In this document: one piece after another, positions 9,414 through 16,047 of the stretch
How the letters are laid out: the number at the start of each line of letters is the position of its first letter
Numbering within the stretch: position 1 is the first letter of the stretch
DNA from: a virus
Virus record (IMG/VR): IMGVR_UViG_3300017967_000249
Coordinates: 1 to 22,112 of that record
Reading direction: 5' to 3' (one strand)
DNA length: 22,112 nt
Program-made: the position numbers and the translations under genes
The notes under the pieces: generated by a model
What the model was told of the DNA's origin: nothing
The model's database searches: none
What the model saw: the letters and a program-made list of their open reading frames with translations, nothing else

Positions 9414-10483
9414 TGATTGCCTGTGTGATCGCTTGCTTCTATGTAAATTGATTTCAAGTATTCTTTTAATTTGTTTTTATTAACATCTGTTTCTAATTGA
9501 TCAACATAATTATTTAGGAATGTAACGGTATCTTCTCCCATCTCTAGTATATCATCTCTTACACTAGCTTTAATGTCTGAAAAATCCTCTATGATATTTA
9601 AATCATAAACTGTTATTTCATTATACAATCTTTCAACAAATTTGTCAAATACTTCTTCATTGGTTTTGTTTAATACGATTAATTTTATAAAGTGTTTGTC
9701 ATAAGGTCTAATATCATAATAAGCGTAATCTCTTTTTTTATCATCATATATTATTTTTTTATGTATTGTTTTTGGATTCCATATTCTTTCTATTTCTCTA
9801 GTTTCAGTATCAAATACGTGAAACCCTTTTGGATCCTGATAATCTGACCAAGTCATTTCATATTGAGCACCTAAGTAAATAATATGACCGTCATCTGTGT
9901 GTTTATGAAAGTGGCCTGAAACAACTCTATCAAATCTTTTAAAATCAGATTTTTCTAATCCGTGTTCATTAATTACGCCGTTTTGCATTTCAATACCTTT
10001 TATTTCTAAATGACCAAAACATATATCTGCTTTTGCTGTTTGTATTGCGGTCATTGATTCTTGGTAGTTGTCTTCACATATCCAAGGCACAAACAGTATA
10101 TCTGTACCATCAAAGTTTACTACTTTAGGTCTTGTATAAATCCAAGGTTCATTTTGACCATCAAAAGAAGTATAAAGATTTTCTACAGCGTTTACTTCGT
10201 TTGTATTTTTATAATATGTGTCGTGGTTACCAATAATAATATGTGTATCAATTTTTTCTTTCCAAAGTCTTTCAAAAAAAGTTTTTCTAAAAACAGAAGC
10301 TGTTTGATGATTAATAAACTTTCTTCTATCAACAACATCACCTAAGTGAATAAGTGTTTTAATATTATGTTCTTTTATATAAGGAAAAAATATTTCATTA
10401 TAAAAGTCTAATTGATAGTCTCTAAAAGCTTCAGAGTCATTTCTCACACCAAAGTGTGTATCGTTTAGCAGAGCAATTTTCAT
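9410..10483 (-). CDS. 47: gp47 recombination endonuclease subunit (Mre11/SbcD-like)
   Basis: A 357-aa calcineurin-like phosphoesterase, the nuclease subunit of the gp46/47 complex. The metal-binding motifs appear in order: LNDTHFG (6-12), HLGDVVDRR (46-54), IIGNHDTYY (83-91), the GHLEIKG region near 157 and SGHFHKH near 190. Length is close to T4 gp47 (about 339 aa). It starts 1 nt after the gp55 stop and overlaps the gp46 start by 4 nt (ATGA). Confidence 0.97.
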   Translation of the reverse strand: MKIALLNDTHFGVRNDSEAFRDYQLDFYNEIFFPYIKEHNIKTLIHLGDVVDRRKFINHQTASVFRKTFFERLWKEKIDTHIIIGNHDTYYKNTNEVNAVENLYTSFDGQNEPWIYTRPKVVNFDGTDILFVPWICEDNYQESMTAIQTAKADICFGHLEIKGIEMQNGVINEHGLEKSDFKRFDRVVSGHFHKHTDDGHIIYLGAQYEMTWSDYQDPKGFHVFDTETREIERIWNPKTIHKKIIYDDKKRDYAYYDIRPYDKHFIKLIVLNKTNEEVFDKFVERLYNEITVYDLNIIEDFSDIKASVRDDILEMGEDTVTFLNNYVDQLETDVNKNKLKEYLKSIYIEASDHTGNQ

Positions 10484-10484
10484 A

Positions 10485-11033
10485 TTATATTAGTTCTTCT
10501 AATGGAGTTCTGTATTCTTTTCTTTTTCTTTTTTTTATCTTTATTTCATTTGTTTTTGGAGTTTCTTCTACTGATCTATTCTTTCTTAAAAACTCTATAA
10601 ATTGATTTGTGTAATCTTTGTTTTCATCACCTGGTTGAACAGCTAAATCTGCTAAATTAGCATCTTCTATTATCTTAACTTTAATGTTAACTTGTTTTTT
10701 TTCTTTTTGTATTCTTCTTATAAAAGCGTAATATATGATTTGCGTAAAATATGCAAATGGATTTTTTGATTTTTTAGGATTAAAATTACTTAAATACTGT
10801 AAACAGTTTTCTATACCATCACTTATCATTTCATCTCTAAAGGTATAATTAATAAAATTAGGCCTATAAGATAGGTGATTCGCAATCTTTAAAAAACATT
10901 CTCCAATGTAATTTGTAACAGGTGGATTTTTTCTATTTCTTTTTTTAGCTTTATTACAACGATCTTTATATTCAATCATTGCTTCTAAAAACTTTTTATT
11001 ATCTACGTAGTGCTCACTTTTTTTTCTGCTCAT
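10485..11033 (-). CDS. 55: gp55 late-transcription sigma factor
   Basis: A 182-aa homologue of T4 gp55 (185 aa), the diminutive sigma factor that directs host RNA polymerase to TATAAATA late promoters. The sigma region 2-like core is FRDEMISDGIENCLQYLSNF followed by PFAYFTQIIYYAFIRRIQKE. The tail is very basic and ends TPLEELI, a hydrophobic-acidic end that could serve as the sliding-clamp contact known for T4 gp55; that is an inference. It heads the gp55-gp47-gp46-deformylase-oxygenase-GNAT-methylase operon. Its promoter at 11058-11086 is a perfect sigma70 consensus, and GGAG precedes the ATG. At least five exact late-promoter octamers in this window are its expected targets. Confidence 0.94.
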   Translation of the reverse strand: MSRKKSEHYVDNKKFLEAMIEYKDRCNKAKKRNRKNPPVTNYIGECFLKIANHLSYRPNFINYTFRDEMISDGIENCLQYLSNFNPKKSKNPFAYFTQIIYYAFIRRIQKEKKQVNIKVKIIEDANLADLAVQPGDENKDYTNQFIEFLRKNRSVEETPKTNEIKIKKRKRKEYRTPLEELI

Positions 11034-11057: not shown

Positions 11058-11086
11058 ATTATACTATAATATATGTTTTTTGTCAA
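11058..11086 (-). promoter_or_regulatory. Perfect-consensus sigma70 promoter of the gp55 operon (family B)
   Basis: Minus strand TTGACA (11081-11086), 17-bp spacer, TATAAT (11058-11063). The predicted start is near 11051, with a leader of about 18 nt and GGAG before the gp55 ATG. The -35 is preceded by CGTAAACCA, shared with the uvsY promoter. Confidence 0.88.
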
Positions 11087-11128: not shown

Positions 11129-11157
11129 TTGACAAAATTCGTTTTCTGGTGTATAAT
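11129..11157 (+). promoter_or_regulatory. Perfect-consensus promoter on the plus strand, antisense-directed
   Basis: Plus strand TTGACA (11129-11134), 17-bp spacer, TATAAT (11152-11157). It is divergent from the gp55 promoter and about 40 bp away from it. The predicted start near 11164 leads into the antisense strand of the 152-aa gene (11191-11649) and then uvsW. No sense ORF, tRNA or clear terminator follows. The -10 lies inside an inverted repeat (11143-11182). Confidence 0.75.
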
Positions 11158-11182
11158 ACCTATGTAGGTGCTTCACCAGAAA
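11143..11182. promoter_or_regulatory. Nested inverted repeat over the plus-strand -10, candidate operator
   Basis: TTTCTGGTG (11143-11151) and CACCAGAAA (11174-11182) form a perfect 9-bp inverted repeat. Inside it lies a second palindrome, ACCTATGTAGGT (11158-11169). The structure brackets the -10 and start site of the plus-strand promoter, as an operator would. In minus-strand RNA it would form a hairpin after the 152-aa gene, but no T-tract follows. Confidence 0.5.
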
Positions 11183-11190
11183 CCTAGCTA

Positions 11191-11649
11191 CTAATGTAAC
11201 TTCTTACTAGGCATTTCTGCTAAATCAACAAAGTCTTTTAGTTTCTTTTTAAGTCTATCTTTTTCTTTAATATCTTCAATCAACTTATCTAACTCCGAAT
11301 CATCTAAGTCTTTTTCTATATAATCAGGTAGTGGTTGTTGCATTAACTTAGCAGACTTAACTAATATGTGATACCTTTTATCAAAAGCATTTGAGGCGTT
11401 ACATATTGTTAAAATCTTATCTTTAGGTATAGTAACTATTTCATCATTTGTAAAACTAATCCATTTAACTAAAGCAATATAATCAGAAACACCAATTTCA
11501 GATATTTGTGGCACATACTTAATTAACATTGGACTTTGCAATCTTAATAAATTGCTTGGTTCTTTTAGTTGTTGAGCTGGAATAGTACAACATAATTCTT
11601 CACCAGAAACTAGTTTGATTATTTTTGTGATAAGAGGTTGTATTGCCAT
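11191..11649 (-). CDS. Conserved phage protein of unknown function, 152 aa
   Basis: I cannot name a family with confidence. Residues 1-85 are a beta-rich domain with the flavour of an Sm/LSm-like barrel: IIKLVSGEELCCTI, then LRLQSPMLIKYV, then ALVKWISFTNDEIVTIPKDKILTI. Residues 110-152 are a charged helical tail (YIEKDLDDSELDKLIEDIKEKDRLKKKLK). It has no signal peptide or membrane segment. The ATG overlaps the uvsW stop by one base (TAATG), so it is coupled to uvsW and ends the uvsY operon. The plus-strand promoter at 11129-11157 would produce RNA antisense to it. Confidence 0.8.
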   Translation of the reverse strand: MAIQPLITKIIKLVSGEELCCTIPAQQLKEPSNLLRLQSPMLIKYVPQISEIGVSDYIALVKWISFTNDEIVTIPKDKILTICNASNAFDKRYHILVKSAKLMQQPLPDYIEKDLDDSELDKLIEDIKEKDRLKKKLKDFVDLAEMPSKKLH

Positions 11650-13115
11650 TACTTTAAATTAACACTATGAATATCATAGTTAAACCCTTCTTCGTTGTAA
11701 ATATTTATTCTTTGTTGAAAGTGTGTAAGTGTAAAATTCTTTTTATCTTTATAAGTTAAGTCATCTGAAATATCATATAAAGTGGCTGTGTTTTTGTTAT
11801 CACCAAGTCTTAAACCTCTTCCAATACTTTGCAAATTTCTTATCCTAGATTTAGAAGGACTAGCAAAAATAAGGTTATGCAAGTTCCGAATATTAATCCC
11901 AGTTGAGAAAGTCCCATACGAGGCAACGATAATTGCATTATCTGATTTTTCAGTAATGGCCCTAACTTGCTCACGTTGTTCAGCATCCACACCACCATAG
12001 ACAAAAAATATTTCCCTATTGTTTTCAGCTTTGTTTTTAATGAGTTCATAAAGTTTCTTTCCGTGTTTTTCTACCAATTGAAACAAACACAAAGTATTAC
12101 CTTGTAAGTTTAATGCTAAGTTTCTTATGTATTTATTTCTTGCTTCAGAAGTAGCTAAATACTCTAGTTCTTCGTGGTACTTACAACCATAAAGTTTTTT
12201 TGCTTCTTCATCATTATGTTTTAAAATTAAACAAACTATTTTTAAATCAGATAATTGTTTTTTATCCATTAATGTTTTTGTATCTACAACTTTGTTAACT
12301 TGACCAAACAATCCTTGTAATACAAGTTTATGTGTTTTACTGTCATCTAAAGTACCTGTCATACCAATACGATATTTACAGTCAACAAGTTTAGTCATAA
12401 TCTTTGTTAGTGATACGGCTTTAAATAAGTGTGCCTCATCACCAATTACAGCACCAAAGTTTTCAAAAAAAGTTTTTGGTAACTTATAAAGCGATTGCCA
12501 AGTAGATATGACAACTCTTTTATTTTCATCAATGTCATAACCGTGATATTTTCTACTAACATTATTTTCTACGTCATAACCATATTGTTTAAAGTCTTTG
12601 TATAACTGTTCTACTAAAGAAGTAGTAGGTACTATAATTAAAATGTTATTATCAATTACATTTAAATAATGTCTAAGTAACATATAAGAAATTAAAGACT
12701 TACCAGAAGCAGTAGGCGATAATATTAAACCTCTATCATTTTCCAATGCAAATTTAAATGCGTCAATTTGATAATCTCTTGGTGTGATAGATAAGTCGTA
12801 AGAATTGATTAAGCCGTCTATATCGGCGGCTGAGACAGTATTAAACGTAAGGATTTCATTGATTTCGTCTATTTTTACATTTTTCTTATTACACCAGTCT
12901 TTTAGATAAGGATACAATCCTACATACATTTGACCTGTAGCATAAGAGTATAATCTTATCTTTCCATCCCAAACTCTACTACGATATTGTGGTGTAAACT
13001 TATAACCAGGTACCTCAAAAGAAAAGTATTCTGACAACTCTCGTCTTATGTCAGCTTCAGCTGTAATTCGTATGTAAACTGAATTAAGTTTTTCTACTTT
13101 TATTTCGCTTGACAT
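11649..13115 (-). CDS. uvsW: UvsW RNA-DNA and DNA-DNA helicase
   Basis: A superfamily 2 helicase, homologue of T4 UvsW, which unwinds R-loops and branched DNA and drives the switch to recombination-dependent replication. The N-terminal domain has FSFEVPGYKFTPQYRSRVWDGKIR, matching the T4 protein. Then come the Q-motif-like RDYQIDAF, Walker A SPTASGKS (133-140), DEAH (226-229), motif III MTGT (about 252) and motif VI QSIGRGLR. I use the ATG at 13115 (MSSEIKVEKL), which aligns with the T4 N-terminus and gives 488 aa. The frame is open to a TTG at 13142 and another ATG at 13127, and none of these has a good ribosome binding site. It overlaps the upstream oxygenase gene by about 30 nt. Confidence 0.95.
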   Translation of the reverse strand: MSSEIKVEKLNSVYIRITAEADIRRELSEYFSFEVPGYKFTPQYRSRVWDGKIRLYSYATGQMYVGLYPYLKDWCNKKNVKIDEINEILTFNTVSAADIDGLINSYDLSITPRDYQIDAFKFALENDRGLILSPTASGKSLISYMLLRHYLNVIDNNILIIVPTTSLVEQLYKDFKQYGYDVENNVSRKYHGYDIDENKRVVISTWQSLYKLPKTFFENFGAVIGDEAHLFKAVSLTKIMTKLVDCKYRIGMTGTLDDSKTHKLVLQGLFGQVNKVVDTKTLMDKKQLSDLKIVCLILKHNDEEAKKLYGCKYHEELEYLATSEARNKYIRNLALNLQGNTLCLFQLVEKHGKKLYELIKNKAENNREIFFVYGGVDAEQREQVRAITEKSDNAIIVASYGTFSTGINIRNLHNLIFASPSKSRIRNLQSIGRGLRLGDNKNTATLYDISDDLTYKDKKNFTLTHFQQRINIYNEEGFNYDIHSVNLK

Positions 13116-13821
13116 AATGTTGTTCATTAAGTTGTGTATCAACTTTTGCTAATAATTTCTTTTTTTCTTCAGAGCGAAATTCAACTGGAAGTCCTAAATG
13201 AGGTCTAGCATCATACTTACAATAATCTTTGTATGGACCATTTACATCATTAAAATGTAAAAAGACTTGTGCGTGATTATTACCTTCAAATTTTTCTCTC
13301 CAATGTTCAACTTCACATCCTCTATAAACTATCATATCGCCTTCATTTAAATATATAGGCGTTCCTTTATTACCAAATCCTCCAGTCTCATCAACAAACA
13401 TAGGCCAACGATAATTAGAATCATTAACATTATGACCTAACATTAAAGTTGTTGATACTTCACAACTTGGTCTATCTTTATGTCTTTTTAATACATCACC
13501 TGGTTTATATAATCTCCAATAAGAGTAAGTAGGTTCTAATTGTAAACCAGTAATCTCTCTCATAGGTATTGTTGCTTGATCTAATAAAGTTTCCATTGCA
13601 GGATCAGCGTAACAAGAATATGTCTTTGGTGCTTGTTTGTCATCATAAGTACCATCTATATCTGGTCTATAACCTTTATAATTTGATTGATAAAATGTTG
13701 CAGCTCTTTTGGCTCTCATCAAAGCATATGCGTAAAGAAAATCTGCTTTTTCTTTTGAAATAAAGTTTCGTATGACCACATACTTGTGATCTTTATAAAA
13801 TTGTTTTGTATCTATTGCCAC
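13084..13821 (-). CDS. 2OG-Fe(II) oxygenase, prolyl-4-hydroxylase-like
   Basis: A 245-aa dioxygenase if started at the GTG at 13821, which has AGGA 5 nt upstream. A GTG at 13839 would add six residues but lacks a Shine-Dalgarno sequence. In the 245-aa numbering the iron ligands are H114-x-D116 (KRHKDRPSCEVSTTL) and H173 (CEVEHWREKF). GDMIVYRG is the usual strand before the distal His. I do not see the classical Arg/Lys 2OG-binding position clearly; the expected site reads NNHAQVFLHF. Residues 194-212 (GPYKDYCKYDARPHLGLP) extend beyond the minimal fold. The substrate is unknown. It lies between another 2OG oxygenase and uvsW and overlaps both, so it belongs to the uvsY operon. Confidence 0.82.
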   Translation of the reverse strand: MAIDTKQFYKDHKYVVIRNFISKEKADFLYAYALMRAKRAATFYQSNYKGYRPDIDGTYDDKQAPKTYSCYADPAMETLLDQATIPMREITGLQLEPTYSYWRLYKPGDVLKRHKDRPSCEVSTTLMLGHNVNDSNYRWPMFVDETGGFGNKGTPIYLNEGDMIVYRGCEVEHWREKFEGNNHAQVFLHFNDVNGPYKDYCKYDARPHLGLPVEFRSEEKKKLLAKVDTQLNEQHYVKRNKSRKT

Positions 13822-16011: not shown

Positions 16012-16047
16012 TAAAAAAAAAGGGCGACTTTTACATCGCCCTTTTTA
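16012..16047 (-). terminator. Intrinsic terminator after gp23
   Basis: On the minus strand AGGGCGA (16036-16042) pairs with TCGCCCT (16021-16027) across an 8-nt loop. The stem is extended by A/T pairs and followed by a run of T (16013-16020). T-rich sequence on both sides means it may work in both directions. It lies about 20-50 nt after the gp23 stop. Confidence 0.92.

Follow-up and report, generated by a model that had tools for sequence, protein, structure and literature searches.

Why would a phage whose genes run on one strand keep a perfect promoter on the other? The question is raised by a 22,112-nt stretch of viral DNA (IMG/VR record IMGVR_UViG_3300017967_000249, positions 1 to 22,112; hereafter the window), a fragment of a T4-like marine phage near HTVC008M, Mosig, Melnitz and the cyanophages. 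Kyanoviridae count among the ocean's most abundant viruses. To our knowledge, they do not have the MotA/AsiA system of T4, and their early-to-late control is poorly understood for that reason. A preliminary description of the window had pointed to a best-possible promoter, antisense to its surroundings and bracketed by an operator-like palindrome, and had proposed a regulated antisense or small RNA that could time uvsW or the late switch.

The promoter itself is present as described. Positions 11129-11157 of the plus strand read TTGACA-17-TATAAT, a 12/12 match to the sigma-70 promoter, and every long ORF around it runs on the minus strand (Table 1). To its left lies gp55; to its right, and convergent with it, lie a block of two genes, the 152-aa gene (hereafter GC139) for a protein of RNA-binding type and uvsW for a repair helicase. 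The gp55 promoter from which it diverges is indeed equally perfect (11086-11058, also 12/12), with 42 bp separating the two -35 boxes. A scan of 14 kb gave three 12/12 matches, of which the two besides this one, at 11086-11058 and 9648-9620, are on the minus strand; the exact pattern occurs three times in the window vs zero times for a reversed-pattern control. The third perfect TTGACA-17-TATAAT (9620-9648, minus strand) is located within a 357-aa gp47-like gene and points toward a 569-aa gp46-like gene. As geometry, the antisense orientation to GC139 and uvsW is borne out too: the predicted start is a purine within the 6-9 nt past the -10 box of the sigma-70 criterion, the stop codon of GC139 (at 11191) follows 27 nt after it, and uvsW comes next. 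A T4-type late motif (TATAAATA/NATAAATA) is absent near 11129-11190. Overall, this AT-rich window has no excess of promoter-like sites scoring 9/12 or better (64 vs 70.8 expected), so conservation is the test for more than a chance match.

Table 1 Features at and around the antisense promoter (positions in the window)
Feature	Positions	Strand	Remarks
-35 box TTGACA of antisense promoter	11129..11134	+	12/12 promoter match
-10 box TATAAT of antisense promoter	11152..11157	+	17-bp spacer; TATAAT or near match kept in relatives
Predicted transcription start, G of TATGT	11164	+	from sigma-70 spacing, 7 nt past -10 box
Predicted 5' leader of antisense transcript, ahead of 152-aa gene	11164..11190	+	27 nt here
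Inner hairpin/dyad ACCTATGTAGGT across start site	11158..11169	+	arms covary in relatives
Outer repeat, left arm TTTCTGGTG, inside promoter spacer	11143..11151	+	window's sub-lineage only
Outer repeat, right arm CACCAGAAA, +11 to +19 of predicted RNA	11174..11182	+	window's sub-lineage only
gp55 late sigma factor	10485..11033	-	phrog_234
gp55 promoter TTGACA-17-TATAAT, divergent	11058..11086	-	12/12 match
152-aa gene (T4-GC139, Sm-like / 'methylamine utilization'), putative antisense overlap target	11191..11649	-	phrog_471, E 3.8e-13
uvsW helicase, farther along putative antisense path	11649..13142	-	phrog_16, E 1.5e-109

For conservation, gp55 loci were fetched by protein alone in two sets, one centred on the window phage and one on S-PM2, and the resulting 160 loci were picked without reference to the antisense promoter. 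In a first pass, the best antisense promoter was followed by TG 7-8 nt past its -10 box in 74 sequences of the first set (window included) and in 79/80 of the S-PM2-centred set. A second, farther-reaching pass located promoter and start site in 157 of the 160 loci, with scores of 8.5-12 of 12. It missed L314, L337 and L338, and its assignments in L309 and L317 were weak. When these five were read by eye, L314, L317 and L337 had recognisable or degenerate forms, L338 had none, and L309 stayed doubtful. Almost every aligned relative has T(-1)G(+1) at 7-8 nt past the -10 box, the +1 being predicted, and relatives selected by gp55 match the two boxes at 9-12 of 12.

TTGACA-N16/17-TATAATACC and the palindrome ACCYATGTRGGT persist in relatives of the GC139 gene whose protein identity is as low as 49%, despite replacement of the stretch between the element and gp55; a GC139 alignment was too divergent to serve as a search query. 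The Pfam model Sm_like matched the window's 152-aa protein under the cutoff (21.2 bits vs 29.4) and the P-SSM4 and S-PM2 homologues above it. At the same site, the element is found in isolates which infect different host groups: HTVC008M (TATAATAGGCATGTGCCT), Mosig (TATAATAACGGTGTCCGTT), P-SSM4 (TACACTAAACCGTGTAGAGGTTT), S-PM2 (TACAATAACTCTGTCGGGGGTT) and, in a weaker form, Melnitz. The predicted starts lie near 84439 in S-PM2 (minus strand, AJ630128), 80260 in HTVC008M (minus strand, KC465899), 21352 in Mosig (plus strand, MT647606) and 125238 in P-SSM4 (minus strand, AY940168). In Mosig, a hypothetical CDS (QOI68994.1; L151 3451-3561) is annotated across the promoter element, probably as an annotation artefact. 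ORM_20, a T4-like phage outside Kyanoviridae, has another gene order beside uvsW and hence is not comparable. Conservation in related phages, the check named for the preliminary description, thus came out in its favour: the promoter is kept, and the inner dyad is kept as a covarying stem. Judged by its sequence and place, the antisense promoter is not a chance match. The element probably spans Kyanoviridae as a whole, as an unrecognised antisense RNA signal that would have been kept for a very long time.

The position of the element was also informative. Across the 157 loci, the predicted +1 keeps a steady distance to the GC139 stop codon (median 26 nt, IQR 21-29), whereas the distance to gp55 ranges from 70 to 838 nt. 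Insertions therefore fall on the gp55 side, and the element belongs to the 3' end of GC139, not to gp55. The gap itself, and not the antisense overlap, could be what selection has acted on to keep this spacing tight.

Concerning the palindromes, the preliminary description had a dyad bracketing the -10 box and the start. The inner repeat ACCTATGTAGGT, which begins directly after the -10 box, is confirmed, with the predicted start site at its centre. Of the 108 nonredundant sequences, 77 can pair there into a stem of 4 bp or more, vs 38 ± 4.5 in a dealt control, in which right arms are redistributed between phages (300 shuffles, maximum 53). The arms vary (ACCC/GGGT, AACGG/CCGTT, GACT/AGTC, CGACT/AGTCG, AACTC/GGGTT, CCGG/CCGG), and the loop measures 3-9 nt. 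Such hairpins are uncommon at other promoters: of the promoters in four complete genomes that score 10/12 or better and have a correctly spaced TG, about 8/99 carry one once copies of the cassette are removed. Since +1 is G11164 at ordinary sigma-70 spacing, the inner palindrome straddles the start and half of it lies in the transcript. A hairpin entirely within the plus-strand RNA is ruled out because the left arm is upstream of the predicted start (-6 to -2). We infer that the hairpin may be a structure of the non-template strand during initiation. Read on the plus strand, the non-Watson-Crick pairs are 32 G.T and 0 A.C; this excess points to a single-stranded plus-strand hairpin but is only suggestive, as the dealt control leans alike (22 to 3.7) and kinship among the phages makes them non-independent.

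The outer 9-bp inverted repeat, the other part of that dyad, is limited to the sub-lineage of the window. Its arms are 9/9 complementary and 22 nt apart; the mean score is 5.46 vs 4.91 ± 0.25, with 3/200 shuffles as high, and L238 has a covarying version. A 13-nt direct repeat, CTTCACCAGAAAC, occurs at 11171-11183 in the leader and at 11598-11610 in the antisense of the early codons of GC139. The idea that the leader pairs through this repeat with the start region of GC139 was rejected: such pairing is private to the lineage of the window phage, shows no covariation and does not exceed the dealt controls.

Copies of the cassette were found elsewhere. S-PM2 has a second, sense-oriented copy (AJ630128 162737-162772, L460) 5' of p212 (GC49), and so does P-SSM4 (AY940168 51125-51161, L461) 5' of the small ORF 070.4. 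The S-PM2 copy is private, and the idea of a conserved promoter before GC49 was dropped. A search with the cyanophage-type core, AATAACTCTGTN1-3GGGTTCA, retrieved 120 viral contigs; 93 have it at the gp55/GC139 site, the other 27 in a different place. Most of these 27 copies are directly upstream of ORFs, e.g., those for a SegE-type GIY-YIG endonuclease, a RusA-like resolvase and a protein named from its sequence as 6-phosphogluconate-dehydrogenase-like. Because sense copies sit directly before genes, the cassette is credible as a real early-type promoter. The late motif NATAAATA follows shortly after the start in 18/27 copies elsewhere vs 0/93 antisense copies; the antisense copy thus looks to be used early only. 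A host origin of the cassette was rejected, given that 257 Gb of cellular genomes yielded just 9 chance-level matches to the core, none of them cyanobacterial.

The promoter most likely makes an early antisense transcript into the GC139-uvsW 3' end. The reading which we favour, and to which we give slightly better than an even chance, is that of a conserved early-type cassette for host sigma-70, placed antisense about 26 nt past GC139 and acting in cis on the 3' end of the operon. Host RNA polymerase would start at G11164, read into the 3' end of GC139 toward uvsW, and oppose the uvsY-uvsW-GC139 operon early in infection, while host sigma-70 is in charge. Through pairing with the mRNA tail, collision with oncoming polymerase, or both, it would limit GC139/uvsW output and read-through into gp55. 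The start-site hairpin, being part of the cassette, would probably tune initiation or escape. Transcription, timing, target and effect are here deduced from the DNA itself; an effect on the timing of uvsW or of the late switch, as first suggested, would be compatible with the data. A bolder version has a mobile, family-wide early cassette of Kyanoviridae whose non-template-strand hairpin controls initiation and whose one ancient antisense copy would gate transcription between the uvsW operon and the late sigma gene; we regard it as rather unlikely.

Several rival explanations were weighed. The polymerase could act as a roadblock: bound or slow to escape, it would stop the polymerases of uvsY-uvsW-GC139 before gp55, and the RNA would be a by-product. 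The fixed position right past the GC139 stop codon suits this idea, as does the hairpin at the start site, which would favour retention of the polymerase. The window's stretch from GC139 to gp55 showed no intrinsic terminator, and in the aligned relatives no conserved RNA body is seen beyond about +20. Nevertheless, the sense copies before genes mean that polymerase must be able to escape, and we consider the roadblock unlikely. It seems quite improbable that the element yields a trans-acting small RNA, some 45-70 nt long, ending at a terminator that the antisense of the C-terminal GC139 codons would form. The first 20 nt of the predicted RNA are partly conserved, and a hairpin with U-tract is clear in a few loci (L283, L284, L270, L307, L344). 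However, terminator-like structures after the start (40/107 loci vs a shuffle mean of 28, maximum 37) are modestly above shuffles, none lies at small-RNA distance in the window, Rfam gave no match at the gathering threshold and otherwise chance-level matches only, the leader has no consensus fold beyond the start hairpin, and the conserved 5' end also serves as a 5' leader before ORFs. Of the regulated antisense or small RNA first proposed, it is the antisense promoter, with its conservation, that stands; the discrete small RNA has neither an Rfam match, a convincing terminator nor a conserved body past about +20. In L283, L284 and L270, the end of GC139, with its last codons and its stop, gives on the antisense strand a terminator-like hairpin with U-tract at +20 to +50; GC139 often ends Lys-Lys...His-stop. 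In the part of the window scanned, the sole clear plus-strand intrinsic terminator 3' of the antisense promoter is the strong, symmetrical AAAAAGGGCGA...TCGCCCTTTTT at 16017-16046. A short plus-strand coding ORF was rejected as well: the longest ORF has a median of 21 aa and no start is conserved, and the window's first ATG past the palindrome (TAATGTAA) runs straight into a stop codon.

Replication offers another possible role. T4 replication origins use promoters, and T4 UvsW dissolves origin R-loops. A promoter beside uvsW could accordingly make the primer RNA of an R-loop origin, and plus-strand structure could stabilise the displaced strand. Moreover, a single theta origin is predicted for the relative Syn9 (PMC2984593). 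Against this, the GC skew of S-PM2 and HTVC008M has no turning point at the element, in a skew dominated by nearly one-stranded genes, and the cassette elsewhere resembles an ordinary gene promoter; such an origin is very unlikely. We rate as highly unlikely a classical operator, i.e., a dimeric repressor binding the palindrome to switch the antisense promoter. The palindrome is centred on +1, a common operator position, but the arm sequences vary widely with complementarity kept and the loops range from 3 to 9 nt, a pattern more in keeping with a strand that folds into a hairpin than with a repressor site of fixed sequence. These features tell against the operator-like character given to the palindrome in the preliminary description. 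The surplus of G.T over A.C among the deviations also speaks against an operator, with the reservation that the shuffled expectation leans toward G.T too and that the phages are not independent. A functionless chance promoter in an AT-rich genome agrees with the lack of enrichment of promoter-like sites, but since almost all of the 160 loci, as well as isolates of different host groups, have the promoter in this position, we give the idea almost no credence.

A non-coding control element in nearly every sampled member of Kyanoviridae provides a concrete antisense target, with a start predicted to the nucleotide, and a start-site hairpin whose arms covary would by itself be unusual for a promoter. 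A literature search found no description of the element, the Syn9 transcriptome study being outside that search. What would be new is a putative cis-antisense early promoter combining an unusual start-site hairpin with near family-wide conservation.

The element can be compared with known systems. Like the T4 origin promoters (oriF/uvsY) and their association with UvsW, it is a promoter near recombination and replication genes, but no skew or other origin signature was found with it. The early promoters of T4-like cyanophages have TTGACA/TATAAT with 16-17 bp spacing and are presumably read by unmodified host polymerase (PMC2984593). The element shares these boxes and this spacing, and adds the start-site hairpin and the conserved TG start; furthermore, the copy found across the family runs antisense to every gene. 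Tandem early and late promoters occur on cyanophage genes, e.g., psbA of S-PM2d (PMC5931967). The cassette copies elsewhere, often followed by the gp55 late motif, resemble this arrangement; the antisense copy, devoid of that motif, differs from it. Finally, CfrI of cyanophage S-PM2, an antisense RNA of about 225 nt at psbA that was seen experimentally, is the one antisense RNA reported for Kyanoviridae among the literature found (PMC2984593, PMC9602691). CfrI overlaps the 3' end of a gene in antisense, as the predicted transcript of the element would. In contrast, CfrI is tied to psbA and a homing endonuclease gene, whereas the element stands at uvsW-GC139/gp55; and CfrI was seen as RNA, whereas the element is known as a sequence present in nearly all family members sampled.
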